Source: Acidisarcina sp. (GTDB taxonomy: Bacteria > Acidobacteriota > Terriglobia > Terriglobales > Acidobacteriaceae). Taken from it: a stretch of 64,000 nucleotides of DNA. Below, in pieces: positions 5,712-52,250 of the stretch. Position 1 is the first letter of the stretch, and each line of letters opens with the position of its first letter. Under the pieces are notes generated by a model, which had not been told where the DNA came from, did not search any database, and saw only the letters and a program-made list of their open reading frames with translations. The stretch spans positions 1,054,001-1,118,000 of the forward strand of contig DATLIY010000007.1 in the NCBI GenBank assembly GCA_035539175.1. The letters are read 5' to 3'. A program made the translations under genes and the position numbers.

Positions 5712-7367
5712 ATGGATGAAAGCAAATTAAAGATCATTCCTCTGGGCGGTCTAGGCGAATTCGGGATGAATTGCCTCGCCCTTCGCTGGCAGGACGACAT
5801 TATCGTCATCGACGCCGGCTTGATGTTTCCCGAAACCGAACTGCTCGGTGTGGACATTGTGGTGCCGGATATCACCTACCTGGTGGAGAACCGGGAGTGT
5901 GTCCGCGCCATTATCCTCACCCACGGTCACGAAGACCATATCGGCGGATTGCCCTGGATCCTGAGCGAGCTGAACGTACCGGTCTATGCGACCGAGTTTA
6001 CGCTGGCCTACGTTGAGGGCAAGCTGGACGAGCACAAGCTGCTCGACCAAGCCGAGCTGATCGAAATCGAGCCGAAGCGCAAATTCACAATTGGGCCGTT
6101 CACGGTGGAGCCGATCCGCGTGACGCACAGCCTGGTGGATTGCGTAGCTCTGGCGATTGAAACCCCGGTTGGGGTGGTAGTGCACACCGGCGACTTCAAG
6201 ATCGACCTTTCTCCGCCGGATGGCAAACCCTTTGACCTGCATACCTTTTCCGATTACGGCAAGCGCGGAGTGCTGGCGCTTCTGCAGGACTCGACCAACG
6301 TGGACCGCCCCGGCTACACGCCGAGCGAGTGGGCGGTTCGGCCGCGGCTGGACGAGATCTTCTCGCGGGCCAAGCGCAAGCTGTTCTTCAGCTGCTTCTC
6401 GTCCTCCATCTATCGCATCCGGATTGCGCTGGAGCTGGCGGCCCTGCACAAGCGCAAGGTGGCCATCGTTGGCCGCTCGATTGTGGAGTCGTCGGAGATC
6501 GCGCAGGACCTGGGCTATATCGAGATTCCTCCGGGGCTGCTGATCAATCCCGGGCAGATCAAGGACTATGCGGCCCACGACGTCATGGTGATGATCAGCG
6601 GCACGCAGGGCGAGCCAATGAGCGCCCTGTCACGCGCTGCGGTGGACAACCATAAGTACGCGCACATTGAGAAGGGCGACACGGTCGTGCTGAGCTCGCG
6701 CGTGATCCCCGGCAATGAGAAGAGCATCTTTCGCGTCATCGACCACCTCTACCGCCGGGACGCGCAAGTAATCTACGACGACGGCGCTTCGGGACTGATC
6801 CACGTCAGCGGACACGGCAGCCAGGAGGAATTGCGCCTGATGACGAATCTGCTGCAACCGAAATTCTTCATCCCGGTACACGGCGACTACCGTCATCTGA
6901 AGCGGCACTCGGACGTAGCCATGAGCACGGGCGTGGTGGAGACGGCGATTCTGCTGGAGGACGGCGATGTTCTCGAACTGGATGCCAGGTCCGCAAAGAA
7001 GAATGGCAAGGTCACGGCGGGACGCATCTGCATCGACTCCGGCTCGACCGGCGACGTGGTGGAAGACCTGGTGATCCGCGACCGCCGGCTGCTGAGCGAA
7101 GACGGTTTTGTGCTGGCGATTGTCACCATCAACAAGCTGACGGGCGAAGTGGAGCGGCAGCCGGAGATCGTGTCGCGTGGATTTGCTGCGGCCGATATCG
7201 CCGACGAGGCGCGCGATATCGTGGCGCGGACGCTGGAGAACTCTTCCACCGAGGAGAAGGCGGACTACGGAGTCACCAAGGAAAAGATCCGCATCGATCT
7301 GAAGCGCTATATCCAGAAGCAGACTGGCCGCCGGCCGCTGATCATGCCGGTGATTCTGGAGATCTGA
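5712..7367 (+). CDS. rnj: Ribonuclease J
   Basis: A 551-residue metallo-beta-lactamase/beta-CASP ribonuclease with 5'-3' exonuclease and endonuclease activity in RNA turnover and maturation. The zinc-binding motif HGHEDHIGG is at residues 71-79. Further metal ligands sit in VHTGDFKID and in HVSGHGSQEEL, a beta-CASP signature. The C-terminal domain is complete and ends in a KEKIRIDLKRYIQKQTGRRP helix region. Length matches the roughly 555 of Bacillus RNase J1. A second RNA-decay nuclease, RNase E/G, is encoded at 41.6-44.9 kb. Confidence 0.96.
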   Translation: MDESKLKIIPLGGLGEFGMNCLALRWQDDIIVIDAGLMFPETELLGVDIVVPDITYLVENRECVRAIILTHGHEDHIGGLPWILSELNVPVYATEFTLAYVEGKLDEHKLLDQAELIEIEPKRKFTIGPFTVEPIRVTHSLVDCVALAIETPVGVVVHTGDFKIDLSPPDGKPFDLHTFSDYGKRGVLALLQDSTNVDRPGYTPSEWAVRPRLDEIFSRAKRKLFFSCFSSSIYRIRIALELAALHKRKVAIVGRSIVESSEIAQDLGYIEIPPGLLINPGQIKDYAAHDVMVMISGTQGEPMSALSRAAVDNHKYAHIEKGDTVVLSSRVIPGNEKSIFRVIDHLYRRDAQVIYDDGASGLIHVSGHGSQEELRLMTNLLQPKFFIPVHGDYRHLKRHSDVAMSTGVVETAILLEDGDVLELDARSAKKNGKVTAGRICIDSGSTGDVVEDLVIRDRRLLSEDGFVLAIVTINKLTGEVERQPEIVSRGFAAADIADEARDIVARTLENSSTEEKADYGVTKEKIRIDLKRYIQKQTGRRPLIMPVILEI

Positions 7368-41608: not shown

Positions 41609-44600
41609 TTAGTGGATGTCGAACTGCTCCGGATGCAGACTTGGATCGCTCTTCACGATGATGTTCTTGCTGATCATCTCTTCAAGCTCGGTCAGCCATT
41701 TTGCATTGTGATCCTTCAACGTCTTCACCACATCAGGATGCACACGCAGCAGAACATCTCCGTGATCGAAAGTCTTCTGCATCTTGTGCATCTCAACGTA
41801 GATCTCGTTGCAGACTGTGACCGGGCTCTTCACCATTCCCGTTCCCTGGCAGATGGTGCACTGCACGCTCAAGGTGCGCTCCAGCGACTGCTTGACGCGC
41901 TTGCGGGTGATGGCGACCAATCCGAAATCGTTGAACTGGAGAACCTTCGACGGCGCACGATCCGCCTTCAACGCCTCTTCCAGTGCCTGCATCACGCGAT
42001 GGCGATTCTTGCGCTCATCCATGTCGATGAAGTCGATGACGATGATGCCGCCGAGATCGCGGAGACGAATCTGTCGCACGATCTCTGGAATCGCGTCCAG
42101 GTTGGTCTTGAGAATCGTATCCTCAAGCCGCGCCGTCTTGCCCACATACTTGCCGGTGTTGATGTCAATTGCGACAAGCGCCTCGGTCTGGTTGATGACG
42201 ATCGAACCACCCGACTTGAGCCATACCTTAGACTTCAGCGCCTTGCTGATTTCGTCCTGGATGCCAAACTGTTCGAAGAGCGGCGTCTCCTTGGTATAGA
42301 GCTTGACGCGGCGCACCAGGGATGGCTGGAAGCGGTTGAGGAAGCGCACGATGCGCTCGTATTCCACTTCGCTATCCACCCAGATAGAAGAGAAATTATC
42401 CGACACCTGATCGCGCAGGATGCGCTCGACAAGGTTGAGGTCGTGATAGATCAGGGCCGGTGCCTTGGCTGAGTCGGAGCGCTGCTTAATCTCCGCCCAC
42501 AGGCTGATTAGGAAACGGATGTCGGCGCGGAGATCTTCTTCGCTGGCTCCATCCGCAGCCGTGCGCACGATGAATCCGCCGCTGTTCTCTCCCTTTTCGC
42601 TGATCAGAATCCGCTTCAGCCGCTGGCGCTCTTCGTCGGAAGAGATCTTACGCGAGACCCCGACGTGATTGACGGTCGGCATAAAGACCAGGAACCGGCC
42701 CGGCAGCGCGATATGACTGGTGATGCGGGCACCCTTCTTGGCGATGGGCTCCTTCGCGATCTGAACCAGAATCTCCTGGCCCTGCTTCAATAAGTCGCTG
42801 ATGATCGGCAGATCGGTCATCTGCGCCGTGGATCTGCGTCCACGATCTCCACCACCGCTGTTGCCGCGACGGCGGCCGTGGCGTCCACCACGTCCTCCGC
42901 GACGCCCTTCATCGCTGCGGCGGCTGGGAGCGGGAGCACCGTCGGCGGCGGGAGCTTCTTCCTCCGATTCCTCATCGAAGTCTTCGCCAATCGCTTCTAC
43001 TTCGGACTCTTCGTCGCTCTCCTCATGCTCTTCCTCGGTCTCGGTCTCTTCGGTCGCCACGTCGGAGTGGAACGCAACGTTGACGCGGGTATCGAGATGC
43101 GTATCACGAACCAGCTCGCCAAGGTCCGCGTCGGTCAGGCTATGGTCAATGGTCTCTTCTTCCAGCTCATCCAGATCGTGTTCTTCGCTATGCGCATAGA
43201 GAGGGGTAAAGTCGTACTCCTCTTCGTCGATAACCTCTTCTTCAATCACTCCACGGCCGGGCGCAAATCCCTGGATCGTTCCGACGCTGGTACCGCTGTC
43301 TTCCGTGCCGCTCTCTTCCTCTATCTCCTCAAAGTCTTCGGCTACATCCTGCAGTTCTTCGAGAGACTGTTCCTTGTTGAGCAGCTGCTCCTTCTCCGCG
43401 GCAGCTTCGTTCTCCTCGGCATTCACGGGCGCAGCGGCGGTCTCTTCGACACTCGCAGGCTCGACGGCCGGGGTCACTGGGATCTCCTGCGAATGCTCGG
43501 CAAGCTCGCCGGTTCCAAGGACGCGATCCACATGCACACGGTCAACGTGGTGCTGGACTTCGGCAGCAGCCTCGCTGGGTGCCTCAACTTCGGCCTTCTC
43601 CTCTGCGGGAGTCACGAGGCGGAACTCGCTCGGCGCGGTAGGATCCACGCGATACGACGCTGAGGCATGCGTCGGTTCGGTTTCCTCAGGAAACGGCTCA
43701 ACCCGCTGCTCGGAATCGTGATGGTGTTCGGGATGCTTGATCTCGGCGACTGGTTCAGCTTCTATGGTCGGCTCGGCAGCGTGGCCCACAACCGCCTCAG
43801 TCTCTTCTTCCGCCGCTTCATATTGCGCTTCTTCCGCAGCCTCGAACTGAATCTCTTCCGGCGTCTCTACGTTCGTATCGGCGTGCGCATCAACGTCCGC
43901 TGCGGTCGCGGAAGCCTCTGCCTCGTGCTCGGCAGGAGCGGGCGTCTCCTCAACGTGGGTCGCGCCTGTCGCCGGCGCCAGCGGCACATCATTGCGATAG
44001 CGGGAGATCGTCTCACCCGGCAGCAGATTGCCGCCATCCCACTCGATCGGGGTTTCGATCAGTGTGGACGGCTTGAAGGTCGTGTAGACCGGCGTCGGCC
44101 GCGCAGGCTCAACAGGATTACTGGGCAGCGCTTCAATCTCAATCTCCGGCTCCTGGGCGGGTGCGTGGCCGTACTTCGAGAGTGACTCGCCGGGCAGAAA
44201 GACGGCCGCGGAGGATGCAGAGGATTGCGGCGCATGCGTCGATTTGCGCGGCTCCTCGGCGATGAAGGGCTCGGCCTCGTGCTCTGCGTGGGCCGCGTGG
44301 ATCGAATACGTCTCCGAGGCTTCGTCGAAGCTCTCTTCCTGTGTGGATGGCTCGGCCTCGCGCACCGGTTGCTGTCCGCGCATACCGCGGCGGCGGCCAC
44401 GGCGGCCACGCCAGCGGCGGGTTCCGCCCTGCTCAAACTCTTCTTCCCTGCCCTCTGTCGGGGAGGGTGTGACAACCGCAGCCTCTTCCGCCAGTTGATC
44501 CGGACGAGCGGCACGGGGCGGGCGATTCTCTCGCGGTTCGCGGGCTTGCTGATCGCGGGACTCGCGCGGTTCTCGGGCTTGCGGTTCGCGAGATTCGCGC

Positions 44601-44935
44601 GGTTCGCGCTCGCGGCCACGTCCTTCGCGGCCACCTTCGCTCTCCCGCCCGCCCTCCCGGCGGCCATGAGCGGAACCAACACGCTCAAAGTCGGCAGAGT
44701 CTTCCTGCTCTTCAAGAAAATCGGTGACGTAGAGGAATGCGTCGCGCTCCAGACCTACGTCGACAAATGCCGACTGCATGCCCGGCAACACGCGGGTCAC
44801 GCGGCCCTTGTAAATGGAGCCGGCTAGGGTGTACTCATTTTCGCGCTCGTAGTAAATCTCTGCGAGCTCATCGTTCTCAATAATCGCCAGCCGCGTTTCA
44901 TGGGGCGTGCTGGAAATGCATATCTCTTTTGACAT
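41609..44935 (-). CDS. rng: Ribonuclease E/G with a long acidic insertion in the S1 domain
   Basis: A 1108-residue endoribonuclease of the E/G family, active in mRNA decay and rRNA maturation. The S1 half-domain at about 38-77 (IYKGRVTRVLPGMQSAFVDV) is followed by an insertion of about 625 residues (about 80-705), rich in Glu, Arg and Pro with REPRES-like repeats. The S1 domain then resumes at QGQEILVQIAKE. Catalytic Asp residues lie in VAIDINTGK and VIDFIDM. The zinc-link CTIC is at 1026-1029 and the fold ends soon after, as in RNase G, without an RNase E-type C-terminal scaffold. AGGAGAGG precedes the ATG. RNase J is also encoded at 5.7 kb. Confidence 0.95.
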   Translation of the reverse strand: MSKEICISSTPHETRLAIIENDELAEIYYERENEYTLAGSIYKGRVTRVLPGMQSAFVDVGLERDAFLYVTDFLEEQEDSADFERVGSAHGRREGGRESEGGREGRGREREPRESREPQAREPRESRDQQAREPRENRPPRAARPDQLAEEAAVVTPSPTEGREEEFEQGGTRRWRGRRGRRRGMRGQQPVREAEPSTQEESFDEASETYSIHAAHAEHEAEPFIAEEPRKSTHAPQSSASSAAVFLPGESLSKYGHAPAQEPEIEIEALPSNPVEPARPTPVYTTFKPSTLIETPIEWDGGNLLPGETISRYRNDVPLAPATGATHVEETPAPAEHEAEASATAADVDAHADTNVETPEEIQFEAAEEAQYEAAEEETEAVVGHAAEPTIEAEPVAEIKHPEHHHDSEQRVEPFPEETEPTHASASYRVDPTAPSEFRLVTPAEEKAEVEAPSEAAAEVQHHVDRVHVDRVLGTGELAEHSQEIPVTPAVEPASVEETAAAPVNAEENEAAAEKEQLLNKEQSLEELQDVAEDFEEIEEESGTEDSGTSVGTIQGFAPGRGVIEEEVIDEEEYDFTPLYAHSEEHDLDELEEETIDHSLTDADLGELVRDTHLDTRVNVAFHSDVATEETETEEEHEESDEESEVEAIGEDFDEESEEEAPAADGAPAPSRRSDEGRRGGRGGRHGRRRGNSGGGDRGRRSTAQMTDLPIISDLLKQGQEILVQIAKEPIAKKGARITSHIALPGRFLVFMPTVNHVGVSRKISSDEERQRLKRILISEKGENSGGFIVRTAADGASEEDLRADIRFLISLWAEIKQRSDSAKAPALIYHDLNLVERILRDQVSDNFSSIWVDSEVEYERIVRFLNRFQPSLVRRVKLYTKETPLFEQFGIQDEISKALKSKVWLKSGGSIVINQTEALVAIDINTGKYVGKTARLEDTILKTNLDAIPEIVRQIRLRDLGGIIVIDFIDMDERKNRHRVMQALEEALKADRAPSKVLQFNDFGLVAITRKRVKQSLERTLSVQCTICQGTGMVKSPVTVCNEIYVEMHKMQKTFDHGDVLLRVHPDVVKTLKDHNAKWLTELEEMISKNIIVKSDPSLHPEQFDIH

Positions 44936-45351
44936 TCTGCCTCTCCTGTCCGGCAGGCTGAACCTGACGAACGTCCGGCGAGGCGATCAGAACAGGAATT
45001 CTCCTGCTCCCGGGGTACCGGAAAGGATTGGGGCAGACGAAGAGATGGCCGTAGCGAAGAAGATACCTTGTGTGAGGAGTTGCGAATACCTCCGCCCTGA
45101 ACCGGGTGGAGGCTCACTGAAAGGATCGTAGTGCTTTTGGAGGCTATCTGGGCGCAATGAGTTTGTGACCGCTTCAGCCTTGTAATAAGGCGGGGCCGTT
45201 ACCCGTCGTTGCGCGCTCATACCCAATCCTGCCCGGCCCGGTGATCCACCCGGCCGGCTGTAATAGTTTTAGACTTAACTTCCTAACCCCCGGCATCGCA
45301 CTTGCGCACTGCCGGACAAAACAAAAACCTTGTGGTCTCAGCCGCAGCCCT
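44936..45351. other. Gene-free 416-bp stretch upstream of RNase E/G
   Basis: Between rodA and the RNase E/G gene, both on the minus strand. I see a ribosome-binding site next to the RNase E/G start and several short inverted repeats, including CCGGCA/TGCCGG at 45290-45295 and 45310-45315. A 79-codon minus-strand frame (44987-45226) looks non-coding. It could hold a promoter and a long 5' leader. E. coli rne has such a leader for autoregulation, so a regulatory role here is an inference. Confidence 0.4.
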
Positions 45352-46452
45352 CTAGTTCACGAAGCGGTTCATGCGGACGTTCATTACCATTCCGAGAGCC
45401 AGAAACGTAAACAGAACCGAAGACCCGCCGTAACTCATAAGCGGCAATGGGATTCCGGTTACAGGCATCAATCCGACCACCATCCCTACATTGACCGCGA
45501 TCTGAAAGATCAGCACGGCCACAACGCCCATGACCAGGAACGTTCCGGAGAGATCGGCAGCTGTTTGAGCGTTTTGTATCAAACGCATCAATATGAAGAA
45601 GTATAGCAGTAGCACCGAGACCGCGCCCACAAAGCCATGCTCCTCGCAAAACGCCGCGAAGATGAAGTCTGTGTACGGAATCGGCAAAAAGTCACCCTGA
45701 GTTTGCGTCCCCTTGGTAGCTCCCTTGCCCCAGATGCCTCCCGAACCTACAGCGATCAGGGATTGGCGAATCTGGTATCCGCTGCCTCTGGGATCGTTGT
45801 CCGGATTCACAAAGCTGGTCAACCGTGCCTTCTGGTAAGGCTTGAGGACCTTGCCGCTATACCAGGCGCCGCCAATAGCTACAGCTCCGGCCAACGCGAG
45901 AATGGCCGCCTGTTTCCAGCGGATTCCACCGAGGAACAGTCCACACAGCAGGATGGGGGTATAGGTGAGAGCGGTTCCCAGATCAGGCTGTTTCAGCACC
46001 ATGAGCATGGGTAGACCCACCAGTGCAAAAGCCTTGAAGATGTCGCCCCAGGTCAAATCTCTTCCGGCCAGATTGGTGAAGTAGCGCGCCACGGCAACAA
46101 TCAGGATGAGCTTGACCCACTCCGACGGCTGAAAATGAACGCCTCCCGGCAGCTTGATCCAGCGCCGCGCTCCCAGTACCTTGGTGCCCACCACCATCAC
46201 AGCGAGCAGCGCAACAATCGACACACCATAGGCGTAGTGTACGTAGTCGATCAGCCGGTGATAGTTGACCAGGCTCAGTGCGAACATGCCTACGAGTCCG
46301 CCCAGCAGCCAGATCACCTGCGTCTTGTCAAAACCCACGAACTTGGTGTGCAGCGTAGCAGAGTAGATCTCCGCTACGCTGATGACCGACAGCAGGAGTA
46401 CCAGGCCTAGAAGTACCCAGTCGAAGTCACGAAATGAGAGAAATCGCCGCAT
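45352..46452 (-). CDS. rodA: Rod-shape-determining peptidoglycan polymerase RodA
   Basis: A 366-residue SEDS-family glycosyltransferase with about ten membrane helices, polymerising glycan strands together with PBP2. Hallmarks are ARRWIKLPGGVHFQPSEWVK, VLKQPDLGTALTY, and the late NVGMVVGLMPVTGIPLPLMS motif with SYGGSS. Its length matches RodA (about 370). It lies 53 bp downstream of mrdA in the same orientation, ending the mre-mrd cluster. Confidence 0.95.
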   Translation of the reverse strand: MRRFLSFRDFDWVLLGLVLLLSVISVAEIYSATLHTKFVGFDKTQVIWLLGGLVGMFALSLVNYHRLIDYVHYAYGVSIVALLAVMVVGTKVLGARRWIKLPGGVHFQPSEWVKLILIVAVARYFTNLAGRDLTWGDIFKAFALVGLPMLMVLKQPDLGTALTYTPILLCGLFLGGIRWKQAAILALAGAVAIGGAWYSGKVLKPYQKARLTSFVNPDNDPRGSGYQIRQSLIAVGSGGIWGKGATKGTQTQGDFLPIPYTDFIFAAFCEEHGFVGAVSVLLLYFFILMRLIQNAQTAADLSGTFLVMGVVAVLIFQIAVNVGMVVGLMPVTGIPLPLMSYGGSSVLFTFLALGMVMNVRMNRFVN

Positions 46453-46505: not shown

Positions 46506-48572
46506 CTAAGGCAACCGCACCGCTGCTACCGATGGATGTGCGGCAGCCGCAACGGCAGAGGGCTTGCCTGTATTCGTATTTCCCTGGCCCCTGTTCCCCT
46601 GTCCTGCGTCTCCCTGCCCCGCAGATCGCTGGCCCGGGGTCACGAAGAAGTGCCCACCTCGCAGAGAGGCCGAATTGGCCGTGTCCGCGGGCGGCTCCGT
46701 CCATATCGCTCCCACCTCGACCGGGGCTGGAGGCTGCTTCGCCTCCTCCAGGTTGTTGTCGCGTTTGCGCTGCTTATCTACGTAGGCCAGCACTACCTGG
46801 GCAGCCAACCTGCCTGCCAGAGTACCGTGCTCGCCGCCCTCGAACAGGACGCAGACCACAATCTCGGGATTGCGCCTGGGAGCCACGCCGACAAACCACG
46901 CATTATCTTTCTTGCTGACGCCGACTTTCCCCTTGGACTGATGACCGATGACCTGTGCGCTGCCCGTCTTTCCGGCGAAATCGATGCCCTCCAGGTGACC
47001 GCTGGCGGCGGTTCCTCCCGGTCCCATCACCATTGCCATGGCGTCGGTGATCGTCTCCCAGTTCGACGGGTCAAGGGGAATTCGCTGGTCGCCTGAGCCC
47101 GGAAACGACTCAAGCAACGCCTGGCGATATTCCGCCGGAACCTGATCCTCGTTCACCACGTGGGGACGCCGCAGAACGCCGCCGGAGGCGATTCCGCCGA
47201 TGGCGCGCGCCATCTGGATCGGCGTAGTTGCAATCGCACCCTGTCCGATGCCCACGGAAATGGTCTCTCCGGCGTACCACTTCTCATGGAAATTCTTCAG
47301 CTTCCACTCTTCCGAAGGCATGACGCCGGGAACTTCATTCGGCAGATCGATACCCGTTTTCTGCCCCAGGCCGAGTTGGTGGGACCAATAGGCAATCTTG
47401 CCGATTCCCAGCTTCTCCGCGAGAGTGTAGAAAAAGACGTCGCAGGATTGCCAGATGGCCTTGGTGATATCGGTCGAGCCATGCCCATGCTTCTGCCAGC
47501 ACTGGAAGTAGCGCCCATAGAACGTCGCGCCGCCGCCGCAGTTGACGTGCAGCGTCTGAGCGATTCCCTCCTGCAGTCCGGCCGTCGCCATGATGATCTT
47601 GAACGTTGAACCCGGCGCCAGTTGCCCCTGGATCGCTTTGTTGAGCAGCGGGTGATTCGGATCGGTAACCAGCCTGCTCCACTCATCCCGATGAATGCGG
47701 ATGGCGAAGGCATTGGGATCGAAGGCCGGGTGGCTGACCATCGCCAGAATCTCCCCGGTGCGCGGATCCATGGCAACGACGGCGCCGTTACGCTCGCCGA
47801 GTGCCAGCTCGGCGGCTCGCTGCACATCGATGTCTATGGTGAGCTTCAGATTCTGGCCGCCAACCGCCGGCTCCTTGCCAAGCCGCCCTACCTCGCGGCC
47901 GTGGCTGTCCACGATCACATCGCGAGAGCCGTCCCGCCCCCGCAGAAGCTGGTCGTAAGTCTCCTCCACACCGGATTTGCCCACCACGTCTCCCGGCATG
48001 TAGTAGGCATACTTGGGATCGTTGAGCATATCCTCGCTAACCTCGCCGACGTAGCCGACGAGATGCGCGGCAAAGTTGTCGCGGGGGTAGAGCCGACGCT
48101 GTTCGTCGATCGTCTCCAGTTCCGGCAACTCGTTGCGATGGGCCTCGAGGAACGCCTGCTCATCCGGTGAGAGATCCTGCTTCAGCGGCAATGGCTGATA
48201 AATAGGCGCGGCGCGGTAATGCTTGAGAATGCCCTGGAGCTGATCCACATCCATATGCAGGCCGCGTGCGATCAAGGGCAGATCCGGCGTCAGGTCGCGA
48301 CCCTGCTCCCGCACCAGAAAGCACGAAACCGAGGGATAGTTGTCTACCAGTACGCGGCCATCGCGATCGAAGAGCCTGCCGCGGGGCGCGAGAATTGGAA
48401 CTTTCCGTATGCGGTTCTGCTCCGCCAGGGCACGATAATTCTGCGCCCCCAGGACCTGTAATCTCCACAAACCGGAAATCAGCACCAGCAGAATCGCCAC
48501 GATCACGTATTGCGCGACGGCCAGCTTCATTGCCGGCAGCTTCTCTTCCCGGTTTAGTTTGTCCGAATACAC
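46506..48572 (-). CDS. mrdA: Penicillin-binding protein 2 (transpeptidase)
   Basis: A 688-residue class B PBP that cross-links peptidoglycan for rod elongation with RodA. A membrane helix at about 16-36 (AVAQYVIVAILLVLISGL) anchors it. The dimerisation region includes APRGRLFDRDG (62-72). The transpeptidase motifs are Ser322-x-x-Lys325 (STFK), SCD at 376-378 and KTG at 535-537. A tail from about 610 is low-complexity, with GQGDAGQGNRGQGN repeats and Ala/Pro runs. The start is GTG at 48572; an ATG 42 bases later is an alternative. Confidence 0.95.
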   Translation of the reverse strand: MYSDKLNREEKLPAMKLAVAQYVIVAILLVLISGLWRLQVLGAQNYRALAEQNRIRKVPILAPRGRLFDRDGRVLVDNYPSVSCFLVREQGRDLTPDLPLIARGLHMDVDQLQGILKHYRAAPIYQPLPLKQDLSPDEQAFLEAHRNELPELETIDEQRRLYPRDNFAAHLVGYVGEVSEDMLNDPKYAYYMPGDVVGKSGVEETYDQLLRGRDGSRDVIVDSHGREVGRLGKEPAVGGQNLKLTIDIDVQRAAELALGERNGAVVAMDPRTGEILAMVSHPAFDPNAFAIRIHRDEWSRLVTDPNHPLLNKAIQGQLAPGSTFKIIMATAGLQEGIAQTLHVNCGGGATFYGRYFQCWQKHGHGSTDITKAIWQSCDVFFYTLAEKLGIGKIAYWSHQLGLGQKTGIDLPNEVPGVMPSEEWKLKNFHEKWYAGETISVGIGQGAIATTPIQMARAIGGIASGGVLRRPHVVNEDQVPAEYRQALLESFPGSGDQRIPLDPSNWETITDAMAMVMGPGGTAASGHLEGIDFAGKTGSAQVIGHQSKGKVGVSKKDNAWFVGVAPRRNPEIVVCVLFEGGEHGTLAGRLAAQVVLAYVDKQRKRDNNLEEAKQPPAPVEVGAIWTEPPADTANSASLRGGHFFVTPGQRSAGQGDAGQGNRGQGNTNTGKPSAVAAAAHPSVAAVRLP

Positions 48573-49173: not shown

Positions 49174-50706
49174 CTACAGTCTCCCTCCCGGAGGAGTTGC
49201 TGCGTCCGGGGCTGCTGTCTGCGGCCTGGTTTGCTCGGGCCTTGGCTTGGGTTGCGCAGGATTGGCTGGATTCGATTGCTCAGGACGGTGCTGCGCAGGC
49301 TTAGGTTGCACAGGTTTTGGGGCACTTCCCTCCGGGGACACCGCTCCCGGCTTTCTGGTAGCAGTACCTTCTGATGCGGGAGCCTGCGACGGCTTGCCCA
49401 CGCTCTTCGTCCCGGTGCCGCTGGCCGTCTTACTCGCAGCGCCAGCAGAACCTGTAGCAGAACCTGTAGCAGAACCTGTAGCAGAACCAGCACCAGTAGA
49501 ACCCGTGGTTCCCGCGCCGGGCGTTTTGGCGCTGGTGCCGGCTGAATTCAGCGATTTTCCTGTCGTGGAGCTGCCTGCTCCCGTGCCCGAAGCCGGACGT
49601 GGAGTCTGCCCGCCTGGGGTCATGGTATTGGCGGATGGTATCGTGGCCGGGGAGAAGCGGTCTGGATGCAACGGCACACCCGGCCTGGGGGGACGGCCCG
49701 GGTCGCCTCCTGGCGCTTCCGGCGTTGCATCGGGTGCCGTGGGCGGCGCGTTGGGGTCCTTCAGGCCCGGCAGGCGTTCGGAGAGGATATCGGCGGCGCG
49801 CTTCTGGGATGCTGCTTCAATCGCACTTTGGGCCAGGTCGCGCTGTTCTGCCGCAGGCATCTTATCGTTCACGCCGGTAATCACCAGCACCTCTTCCAAC
49901 CGTGTCAGGTTGGCGGCGGGCTTGACCACAAGCGCAAGGTAGCCGTCATGGTCGGGATCGGGAACCTTGCGCTCCACGACTCCAACCGGCAAGCCTCGCG
50001 GAAACACGCCATCCCCGCCGCTGGTCAGGACACGATCGCCCACCTTGATCTGTTCATCTGGCGCGACGTTGACGATCTGCGGCTGGCCCAGCGAGTTGCC
50101 CCGAAGAACGCCCCGAATCCGCGAGGTCTCGAGCATCACGCCTGCTCCGCTTGTCTGGTCGGAGATGATCAATAACTGAGAGGTGTCGGGAAAGACATCG
50201 CGAATCTTGCCCACAATGCCGTCGGGAGTGATGACCGGCATATCCGGCTTCAGACCGTCGTTGGATCCCTTGTCGATGTAGAGCACATGCGCCACGTCGG
50301 AGCCCGCGGTGCCGATTACCTGCGCCGGTTGCGTGGTGGAGATGTAGTGCTCCTTGAAGGAAAGCAGTTGCTGCAGGCGCTGGCCCTGGCGCGCGTCTTC
50401 GGCAAGTCCCGCCTGTTCAATCCGCAGGCGATTCACTTCTGCCTTGAGATCCTGGTTCTGCTGGCGCACGCCGCGCAGATAGGCATAATTCGACCACACG
50501 CCGCGCAAACCGCCGCCCATGGAGTGAACCCAGCGCTCGGGGGGCGAGATCAGGCTCACCACCCAATAGCGAATCAGCCGGACCTGCCCGGTCTCCGGCG
50601 CGCCCGGAATGGGACGCCGAACCTGGACGGCAAGGCCGACGACCTGGGCGAGCAGGACAGCGATCAGCACCAGGACGTTCTTATACCGGCTGAAAAATGA
50701 TTCCAT
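49174..50706 (-). CDS. mreC: Rod-shape-determining protein MreC with a long low-complexity tail
   Basis: A 510-residue periplasmic scaffold linking MreB with PBP2. It has an N-terminal membrane helix (about 10-28), a coiled coil (about 75-105, QQNQDLKAEVNRLRIEQ) and the beta domains of MreC (about 120-275, with DKGSNDGLKPDMPVITPDG). The tail from about 300 to 510 is rich in Pro, Ala, Gly, Ser and Thr and contains GSAT tetrapeptide repeats. Typical MreC is 280-350 residues, so the tail is unusual. It sits between mreB and mreD. Confidence 0.95.
   Translation of the reverse strand: MESFFSRYKNVLVLIAVLLAQVVGLAVQVRRPIPGAPETGQVRLIRYWVVSLISPPERWVHSMGGGLRGVWSNYAYLRGVRQQNQDLKAEVNRLRIEQAGLAEDARQGQRLQQLLSFKEHYISTTQPAQVIGTAGSDVAHVLYIDKGSNDGLKPDMPVITPDGIVGKIRDVFPDTSQLLIISDQTSGAGVMLETSRIRGVLRGNSLGQPQIVNVAPDEQIKVGDRVLTSGGDGVFPRGLPVGVVERKVPDPDHDGYLALVVKPAANLTRLEEVLVITGVNDKMPAAEQRDLAQSAIEAASQKRAADILSERLPGLKDPNAPPTAPDATPEAPGGDPGRPPRPGVPLHPDRFSPATIPSANTMTPGGQTPRPASGTGAGSSTTGKSLNSAGTSAKTPGAGTTGSTGAGSATGSATGSATGSAGAASKTASGTGTKSVGKPSQAPASEGTATRKPGAVSPEGSAPKPVQPKPAQHRPEQSNPANPAQPKPRPEQTRPQTAAPDAATPPGGRL
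49444..49490 (-). repeat. 12-bp tandem repeat inside mreC
   Basis: The unit AGCAGAACCTGT on the plus strand occurs three times exactly (49444-49479) plus a partial fourth. It encodes repeats of Gly-Ser-Ala-Thr in the MreC tail. In-frame 12-bp units allow length change without frameshift. Confidence 0.9.
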
Positions 50707-50859
50707 AGTCCCGAATAAGGCTATTGAAGCATGCCCTGAGAGCGCTTCGTTTGCCAGTATGTGGAAAGATACTCATCGCCAGAATCGCGGCGTAAAAAGG
50801 ATTGCGGCGCAAAAAACGAGCGCGGCCACACTCACCAGGGAGCGAGGCCGCGACGCTGT

Positions 50860-51924
50860 TCAATCGATCTTGATCTTGCGCAGCAGGCGGAAGTCGCTCA
50901 GCATCTTGCCCGTGCCCAGCACCACGCTCGCCAGCGGATCATCGGCAATCGATACCGGCAATCCCGTCTCTTCGCGGATGCGCTTATCCAGATTCTTGAT
51001 GAGCGCTCCACCGCCGGTCAGCACAATGCCCCGATCGCTGATATCGGCGCTCAATTCCGGAGGAGTCCGCTCCAGCGCGACGCGAATTGCATTCATGATG
51101 GTTGAGATGCACTCGGTCAGTGCCTCGCGAATTTCGCTGTCGTCGATGGTAATCGTCTTCGGCACGCCCTCGATGAGGTTGCGGCCCTTGATCTCCATCG
51201 TCAGGGGCTTGTCCAGCGTGTAGGCCGATCCGATCTCAATCTTGATCTGCTCCGCGGTGCGCTCGCCGATCAGCAGGTTGTACTTGCGCTTGAGGTAATT
51301 CATGATGGCCTCGTCCATCTGATTGCCGGCCATGCGCACCGAGCGCGAGTAGACGATGCCGGAAAGCGAGATCACGGCGATATCCGTGGTGCCGCCACCG
51401 ATGTCCACTACCATGTTGCCCGAGGGCTCGGTGATGGGCAAACCCGCGCCAATCGCGGCCACCATCGCCTGCTCCACCAGGAAAACCTCGCTGGCCTTGG
51501 CGCGATAGGCGGAGTCTTCCACCGCTCGCTTTTCCACCTGCGTGATCTCCGAAGGCACACCGATAACGATGCGCGGATGCACCAGCATCTTGCGGTTGTG
51601 CGCCTTCTGGATAAAGTAGTTCAGCATTTTTTCCGTGATCTTGAAATCGGCGATCACACCGTCTTTCATCGGCTTGATGGCGACGATGTTGCCCGGGGTG
51701 CGGCCCAGCATCTCTTTCGCCTCTTTGCCGACGGCCTCAACCTCACCGGTGTTCTTGTTGATGGCTACGATGGACGGCTCATTGACAACAATTCCCTTGC
51801 CCCGTGCATAGACGAGGGTGTTGGCCGTTCCCAGATCGATTGCCAGATCACTGGAAAACACACTAAACAGCGAGCGCACTCCGTGCGACCGCGAGGAACG
51901 CGATTGAAAACCATTCGATGACAT
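50860..51924 (-). CDS. mreB: Actin-like rod-shape protein MreB
   Basis: A 354-residue actin homologue that guides lateral wall synthesis. Phosphate and adenosine motifs are [10 protein letters not shown] near residue 29, [11 protein letters not shown] and [12 protein letters not shown]. It has about 20 residues of Ser/Arg-rich N-terminal extension before [14 protein letters not shown]. The start is placed at the ATG at 51924; a TTG 27 bases upstream would extend it further. It heads the mreB-mreC-mreD-mrdA-rodA series. Confidence 0.96.
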
Positions 51925-52250
51925 GAATACGGGACTTTTCCTGAAACTCAACTAATTGTAAGGCCAGAGTTGCATTGTCGCATGCAAAGCGCAACCATTT
52001 GTTGCGTTGTTGCGGCCAATGAACAACGAACCCCCTAAGATTCTGCAAATATTCCCGCAATCGACCGCATCCATCGGACACAGAAGGCAGGGCCACAGGG
52101 TAAGCGGCTGCGCGCCCAATCTCCCGCATCTTCTTCAGGGTATTGGTCCTTCAGGCGCTGGACTGGAGGGTGGATGGAAAACCAGCCAGTGGAGAAGCTT
52201 GCTAGTATTCTTACCCGTTGAATGATTTCTGAACGCGGAAAGCAGATTCC
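51925..52250. other. 326-bp divergent intergenic region between mreB and aldehyde dehydrogenase
   Basis: No gene is evident. It should hold the mreB promoter and the opposite-strand aldehyde dehydrogenase promoter. I see the inverted repeat TTGCAT-n6-ATGCAA at 51970-51987. No clear -35/-10 pair was found. Confidence 0.4.

Follow-up and report, generated by a model that had tools for sequence, protein, structure and literature searches.

Can an RNase E/G enzyme carry the scaffold for its partner proteins inside its S1 domain? To our knowledge, known RNase E scaffolds sit mainly at protein ends. The question is raised by a gene of Acidisarcina sp. (class Terriglobia, phylum Acidobacteriota) within a window of 64,000 nucleotides, the whole stretch analysed here (assembly GCA_035539175.1, contig DATLIY010000007.1). 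The gene encodes an RNase E/G family protein whose S1 domain is split by about 630 residues, and within this fast-evolving insertion one short peptide, LPGES[LI][SA]KY, is held across the class. We consider the chances about even that an RNase G-type enzyme took on the role of RNase E by growing a scaffold in its S1 loop. The gene and the parts of its protein are placed as follows.

41609..44935, minus strand: RNase E/G family gene (rng/rne), 1108 aa, from an intact open reading frame and PF10150
44705..44824, minus strand: first S1 half, residues 38-77, with F57/F67 aligned to E. coli F57/F67, from PDB alignments
42812..44704, minus strand: insertion in the S1 loop, residues ~78-708, predicted to be disordered, from hidden Markov model (HMM) anchors, PDB alignments and AlphaFold2 (AF2)
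41861..42811, minus strand: second S1 half, 5' sensor and catalytic part, residues 709-1025, from a Pfam match and PDB alignment
41612..41860, minus strand: zinc-link cysteines C1026/C1029 and C-terminal domain PF20833, from a Pfam match and alignment

An earlier note on this DNA had claimed an insertion of about 625 residues at 42821-44700 (residues ~79-705) inside the S1 domain, and structural alignments agreed with it. With phmmer against the PDB, residues 5-77 aligned to residues 4-77 of E. coli RNase E (chain 2vrt) and residues 709-1038 to residues 87-416. Taken alone, the E. coli S1 domain structure (1slj) aligned to either flank of the insertion (residues 39-76 on 10-47; residues 709-746 on 58-95), which places the insertion inside the S1 fold; a position outside it was not borne out. 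The same loop, as the note had it, is short in E. coli RNase E, with about 10 residues compared with about 630 here (632 aa between HMM anchors) and about 73 in Caulobacter. The match to Caulobacter RNase E (4oxp) stops at chain position 93 and restarts at 167, at query residues 72 and 712, and the Caulobacter insert is therefore at the same site (~73 residues against ~639 here by the same anchors). Insert lengths outside Acidobacteriota were taken from papers. Among 80 named loci, the best 80 of a genome scan, a long insertion was measured in 72 (331-863 aa), while the other eight had no first S1 half in the same open frame, presumably because of contig ends or broken frames. The record titles of these loci were of Acidobacteria type except for L192 and L203, which are titled Acidimicrobiia and Nevskia soli, carry a long-insertion RNase E/G and are possibly mis-binned or mislabelled.

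The PF10150 catalytic region scored 345.6 bits against a cut-off of 25.5, placing the protein in the RNase E/G family, and a PF10150 search of its genome found this gene only. RNase G (PRK11712) came top of the four RNase E/G equivalog models in NCBIfam, with 506.5 bits; this is under the NCBI cut-off of 594, and the protein falls outside the RNase G equivalog. The C-terminus was rightly described in the earlier note as RNase G-like, ending 79 residues past the second zinc cysteine, C1029, and carrying PF20833. Type I RNase E is characterized by an extended non-catalytic region that follows the zinc link and the small domain; no such region was found. Assignment to the RNase G type is based on this C-terminus and on the mre/rodA neighbours. 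RNase G (cafA/rng) shares with the protein its short C-terminus, its mre/rod neighbours and its rank as the best NCBIfam equivalog; E. coli rng also neighbours mre genes, and E. coli RNase G is not known to have a long insertion or a scaffold. Residues K734, R791, T792, D924 and D968 aligned to E. coli K112, R169, T170, D303 and D346, and the catalytic Asp pair, the zinc-link Cys pair and the S1 RNA-contact and 5'-sensor positions were all retained as identical residues. In E. coli, these act in S1 RNA contact (F57/F67/K112), 5' sensing (R169/T170), catalysis (D303/D346) and the zinc link (C404/C407). As the key residues are retained, the enzyme should function with its S1 domain split.

Six elements were distinguished within the insertion.

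44525..44608, minus strand: REPRES-like low-complexity repeats, residues ~110-137, poorly conserved, from translation and alignment
44375..44419, minus strand: N-side Arg block RRWRGRRGRRRGMRG, residues 173-187, from conservation
44171..44200, minus strand: docking-like motif FLPGESLSKY, residues 246-255, from conservation and pattern searches
43997..44023, minus strand: second, looser copy of the motif, LPGETISRY, residues 305-313, from pattern searches
42920..43975, minus strand: mostly acidic stretch, residues ~321-672, from composition
42830..42910, minus strand: C-side Arg block directly before S1 resumes, residues ~676-702, from conservation and composition

The 628 residues of the insertion include 127 Glu, 53 Arg, 33 Asp and 7 Lys (20 % Glu, 8 % Arg). 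Net charge is basic in the Arg block (173-187), acidic over the long middle part and basic again at the end (676-702), and the long acidic stretch that had been seen later in the insertion was located at residues ~321-672. Charge segregation was strong relative to shuffles (z 9.0), with a median of 8.7 over 116 class insertions (116/120 passing a weak redundancy filter) and a value above 3 in 113/116. The C-terminal domain of E. coli RNase E has similar charge blockiness (z 6.9). Fold prediction, which the earlier note had called for, gave a predicted local distance difference test score (pLDDT) mostly of 29-47 across the insertion (AF2, 70 sequences), and the insertion is predicted to be disordered; a Pfam search of it matched no family. 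Measured class proteins had insertions of 303-869 aa, and none was shorter than 303 aa. The ratio of non-synonymous to synonymous differences (pN/pS) in the insertion came to 0.30 in comparison with a same-genus homologue and to 0.52-0.54 with four others. The corresponding values for the catalytic part were 0.12-0.14 with those four and 0.04 with the same-genus one, over 22 codons only. The insertion is thus fast-evolving, with weak protein-level constraint, and most of its positions were poorly conserved in an alignment of 25 family proteins. A frame or assembly artefact was rejected on the basis of this constraint and of the 72/80 named loci in which the insertion was measured. Long open frames opposite the insertion, at 42878-43663 (+) and 42801-43199 (+), are likely by-products of its codon make-up.

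The earlier note had called the insertion scaffold-like and had pointed to the REPRES-like repeats as a contact element. The scaffold-like character was upheld by the S1-loop site, the predicted disorder and the charge blocks. The repeats are present and were rejected as a conserved contact site owing to their poor conservation in the family alignment; the elements that resemble partner sites are instead LPGES[LI][SA]KY and the two flanking Arg blocks. In the same alignment FLPGESLSKY was conspicuous against an otherwise unconserved insertion. The class-wide form, LPGES[LI][SA]KY, occurs in one or more copies per insertion, and across 70 class sequences P248, G249 and E250 were invariant while L247, S251, K254 and Y255 were kept in at least 90 %. 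The pattern PGE[ST][LIFV][SAG][KR][YF] was present in 107/116 class insertions and LPGE in 115/116, with no occurrence in 300 shuffles, and a slightly looser form was found in 68 of the 72 measured insertions of named loci (absent from L142, L178, L185 and L192). A degenerate DNA pattern for the motif gave 40 matches over 41 genomes (31 with and 10 without a match). By comparison with the coordinates of RNase E/G matches, 39 of the 40 were assigned to rne; the sole other match reads TGA in frame, and the reversed pattern matched once. Third codon positions differ between the motif matches, which indicates that selection acts on the peptide. Both Arg blocks were also retained among the 70 sequences, with R176, R178, R179 and R181-R183 on the N side and R676, R681 and R682 on the C side conserved in at least 90 %. 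A basic cluster occurred in the first 45 % of the insertion in 115/116 class insertions and in the last 75 aa in 102/116, compared with 3/116 in one shuffle of the latter test. AF2 showed a local rise in pLDDT at the motif in the window protein (51/49) and in a more distant class member, L193 (59/49, compared with ~37-43 alongside), and a short helical turn at the motif in both. A class-specific short motif under strong constraint within a hypervariable region would fit a docking site.

These features suggest how the insertion may operate. The Arg blocks could hold RNA near the S1/5'-sensor channel and, together with the acidic stretch, may favour condensates like the BR-bodies of Caulobacter RNase E. 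The motif would be a docking peptide for another RNA-decay protein, presented in several copies per enzyme tetramer, and the whole arm would stand in for the scaffold that canonical RNase E has at its C-terminus. PNPase, for which the genome has one match, is a tentative first guess at the partner. The best-matching DEAD-box RNA helicase is another first guess, and a doubtful one; it is a 418-aa protein that comes closest to the models for CshA and RhlE, scoring under the cut-off of each, among 12 DEAD-domain matches in the genome. RNase J (TIGR00649, 543 bits, over the cut-off) is encoded in the window at 5712-7367 (+), ~34 kb from the RNase E/G gene. The RNase E/G enzyme most probably fills the place of RNase E in general mRNA decay; we infer both its takeover of that role and the disorder of the arm in the cell. 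A fuller account, which we hold tentatively and with some doubt, is that the central enzyme of mRNA decay in Terriglobia arose by conversion of an RNase G paralogue, in lineages that lack canonical RNase E and RNase Y, with a scaffold internal to S1, a decay partner docked by LPGES[LI][SA]KY at the RNA entry channel, and feedback through a gene-specific leader. If true, such a degradosome would have originated independently and would have an inverted architecture.

The distribution of the insertion was examined across Acidobacteriota, where PF10150 matched in 255/297 genomes. Loci were sampled from the class (20) and from other families (60), and a further 40 were then added, for the most part second copies or members of families still unsampled; S1 loop length was taken as the distance between two HMM anchors, and locus L003 gave no catalytic reading frame. 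Loops ranged from 9 to 869 aa (190 aa in L088). E/G proteins were compared across the phylum, as had been proposed earlier, in a tree built from the catalytic parts of 124 of them. Loops of at least 100 aa formed one clade there (50 rows, support 97, one change), as they did in a smaller tree (46 rows, support 93). This clade was nested in the RNase G-type part of the tree, and adjoining families had loops of 21-87 aa. The 124-row tree was made by a quick method with Shimodaira-Hasegawa-like approximate likelihood ratio test (SH-aLRT) support only and a midpoint root for drawing; the window's own family was thinned to 11, L001 and L221 were excluded, 11 rows had odd composition and seven had long end branches.

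A separate lineage of 26 rows (100 % support) comprised RNase E with a C-terminal tail (C-tail) and a short S1 loop (11-25 aa where measured). Tails were 87-321 aa in 23 of the 26 rows and 5, 56 and 67 aa in the others, as a result of which the label 'C-tail of at least 80 aa' needs four changes on the tree. This lineage belongs to the same family as the Acidisarcina enzyme and likewise has Arg tracts (in the seven tails inspected) and charge blocks (blockiness z >3 in 12/14 tails tested), with the difference that its S1 loop is short. Sixteen two-copy genomes had both copies measured, and 13 of these combined one C-tail enzyme with one short enzyme (loop 9-47 aa); two-copy genomes G124 and G157 had a short enzyme and a member of the C-tail lineage with little tail. 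Families with insertions of at least 100 aa had one PF10150 match per listed genome (the insertion itself was measured for one to a few genomes of each family), except for genome G326, which has two inserted copies (L049 and L050, 563 and 762 aa). C-tail RNase E was not found beside an inserted enzyme in the phylum sample. With its graded S1 loops of 9-869 aa and its canonical C-tail enzyme, the phylum is a natural experiment in the origin of scaffolds. It offers a scaffold of another position and ancestry together with a defined short bait peptide, and thereby a direct question: which partner must a degradosome recruit, and does its position on the enzyme matter?

Some further observations concern the ends of these proteins. 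The C-tail RNase E of L062, L063, L073, L074, L090, L107 and L216 ends in a WW or W motif that resembles the sequence cited as the PNPase site of Caulobacter RNase E, and 16 of the 23 tails scanned had no such terminal motif. Apparent N-terminal scaffolds in family f43 (L070 and L071) and in L074 were rejected, as the long upstream frames contain no Met and look like read-through. L083 (family f50) has a possible basic/acidic N-terminal stretch of ~100 aa after an in-frame Met, which would be a third place for a tail in the phylum.

RNase Y (PF12072) was over the cut-off in 190/297 Acidobacteriota genomes and missing from 61/61 genomes of the class. In raw counts over 94 rows, RNase Y was absent from 36/39 with inserts of at least 250 aa and present in 34/37 with inserts below 45 aa. 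These counts leave out C-tails of at least 80 aa, any row whose insert was unmeasured, family f1 beyond the 11 rows to which it was thinned, and loci L111, L204, L209, L221, L240, L241, L242 and L243. RNase Y states were transcribed by hand, with one below-cut-off match (G120) scored as absent; the genome of L227 (G172) was scored as negative, while four other genomes of its family were positive.

S1 inserts as such have been described before. Inserts of ~50-150 aa that vary, are charged and are predicted to be disordered are reported for alpha-proteobacteria and plants (PMC4245959), an insertion of ~50 aa is given as typical of alpha-proteobacteria (PMC5436854), and Caulobacter RhlB is reported to bind an N-terminal RNase E fragment bearing the S1 insert (PMC4245959). 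The earlier note's idea of a degradosome built from a different part of the enzyme is partly supported by the scaffold-like make-up of the S1 loop and is less new than it seemed, given these inserts and the RhlB precedent. The insertion agrees with this class of inserts, including that of Caulobacter crescentus, in site, charge and predicted disorder, but it is ~4 times as long as the published upper figure. In addition, the C-terminal domain of the Caulobacter enzyme binds aconitase, RNase D and PNPase, whereas the Acidisarcina enzyme has no such tail. The C-terminal scaffolds of E. coli and Pseudomonas are disordered and furnished with Arg-rich RNA-binding motifs and short linear motifs, and the insertion resembles them in this but lies within S1; no shared sequence was found in the motif comparisons made, none of them systematic. 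In Pseudomonas aeruginosa, Arg-rich motifs bind RNA and RhlB and RE[ED]R repeats bind RNA (PMC11964227). Charge blocks drive the RNase E condensates known as BR-bodies (PMC10412687), and the origin of degradosomes is believed to be multiple (PMC4435900). For the Fibrobacteres/Acidobacteria group, a 2011 survey gives the entry 511 and two minus signs (PMC3071783). No description of this long-insert form was found in open-licence literature on RNase E in Acidobacteriota/Acidobacteria degradosomes, S1 inserts or LPGES (the last judged by title), and its length, motif and gene history appear to be new.

Several results count against the scaffold reading. Three rows with inserts of at least 250 aa do have RNase Y, and insertion length was not significantly associated with RNase Y loss by phylogenetic generalized least squares over all 94 rows (P=0.11), within inserts of at least 100 aa (P=0.63), below 100 aa (P=0.59) or without the window's own class (P=0.31). 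Only three independent pairs fell on well-supported branches, which was uninformative. The link between insertion length and RNase Y loss is thus weakened, being not significant once ancestry is allowed for. In some families only a short RNase G was seen, with C-tail RNase E lacking; loss of RNase E alone therefore does not lead to an insertion. The strict motif was missing from 9/116 class insertions and the motif was found in 0/25 insertions outside the class. The rise in pLDDT at the motif is not unique in the window protein, where residues 511-520 and 601-620 reach 47-53. Finally, AF2 left the S1 domain unclosed in both models, with pLDDT mostly 35-62 in the S1 halves of the window protein, and the case for a folded S1 domain therefore rests on homology.

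Other functions for the insertion were weighed against the same data. It might be a regulatory loop acting in cis, which folds back over the S1/5'-sensor channel, mimics RNA with its acidic residues and binds the enzyme's own core through the motif. The long acidic stretch would suit such a loop, as would the site shared with Caulobacter, where part of the insert forms a helix that, in the crystal, occupies the predicted RNA site and acidic side chains could mimic RNA, and the finding that deletion of the plant insert lowers activity (PMC4245959, the latter as cited there). However, ~630 residues are far beyond the need of a cover, the AF2 monomer models had no confident helix over the channel, though they are weak in that region, and the charge blocks and Arg-rich ends are scaffold-like; a cis-acting loop is unlikely, if still a serious possibility. 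Alternatively, a tolerant surface loop may have lengthened by largely neutral gain of low-complexity sequence, serving at most as an entropic spacer with a motif kept for some minor reason. Such growth would account for the range of lengths in the class, the poor conservation of most positions and a pN/pS of 0.30-0.54. It is improbable given the retention of the motif and both Arg blocks across the class and the lack of any measured class insertion below 303 aa.

The motif might also bind a factor outside RNA decay, such as a membrane or mre/rod cell-shape factor encoded alongside, and so place the enzyme in the cell. This draws on the gene order (rodA-rne in 66/67 loci) and on the adjoining mreB, mreC and mrdA-like genes, but the motif has no long hydrophobic or amphipathic stretch, and E. 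coli rng also neighbours mre genes without a known function in shape. We regard this role as very improbable. The RNase E/G gene of the window lies at the end of an mre/rod cluster on the same strand, with a leader element between it and rodA.

45162..45257, minus strand: conserved leader RNA element, ~96 nt, between rodA and the RNase gene, with a covarying 3' hairpin, from a covariance model
45352..46452, minus strand: rodA (FTSW_RODA_SPOVE), immediately upstream, from a domain match
46506..48572, minus strand: penicillin-binding protein (mrdA-like, PBP2-like)
49174..51951, minus strand: mreC and mreB

The 66/67 figure refers to named loci with >2500 b upstream, and a PBP2-like gene was upstream in 59 of the 67. 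A covariance model from 18 leaders matched the window and 35/69 named loci at E 0.05, all upstream of the gene, with the 18 model-building leaders counted among the 35; the other 34 of the 69 were unmatched. Over 41 genomes it gave 16 matches in 15 genomes, 15 of the 16 at the rne locus, and no match in 26/41 genomes at 0.001. In window-wide Rfam searches no family reached threshold, with no convincing match in the leader, and single-sequence folding of the leader was not better than shuffles (z -0.80). The 5' stem (152/168 pairs, shuffled mean 150) and the outer stem (108/108, shuffled 108) showed no excess over shuffles. The 3' hairpin paired in 128/135 pair cells in 27/29 sequences, compared with a mean of 80 and a maximum of 97 with shuffled partners, a comparison biased in favour of pairing because the arms were picked as the best stems; two of its 10 predicted pairs had double changes. 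The case for a leader RNA rests on conservation and on this hairpin. E. coli RNase E controls its own level through the rne leader, and by analogy the Acidisarcina element fits feedback control by the RNase, which may allow the enzyme to set its own level, though it could be another cis element.

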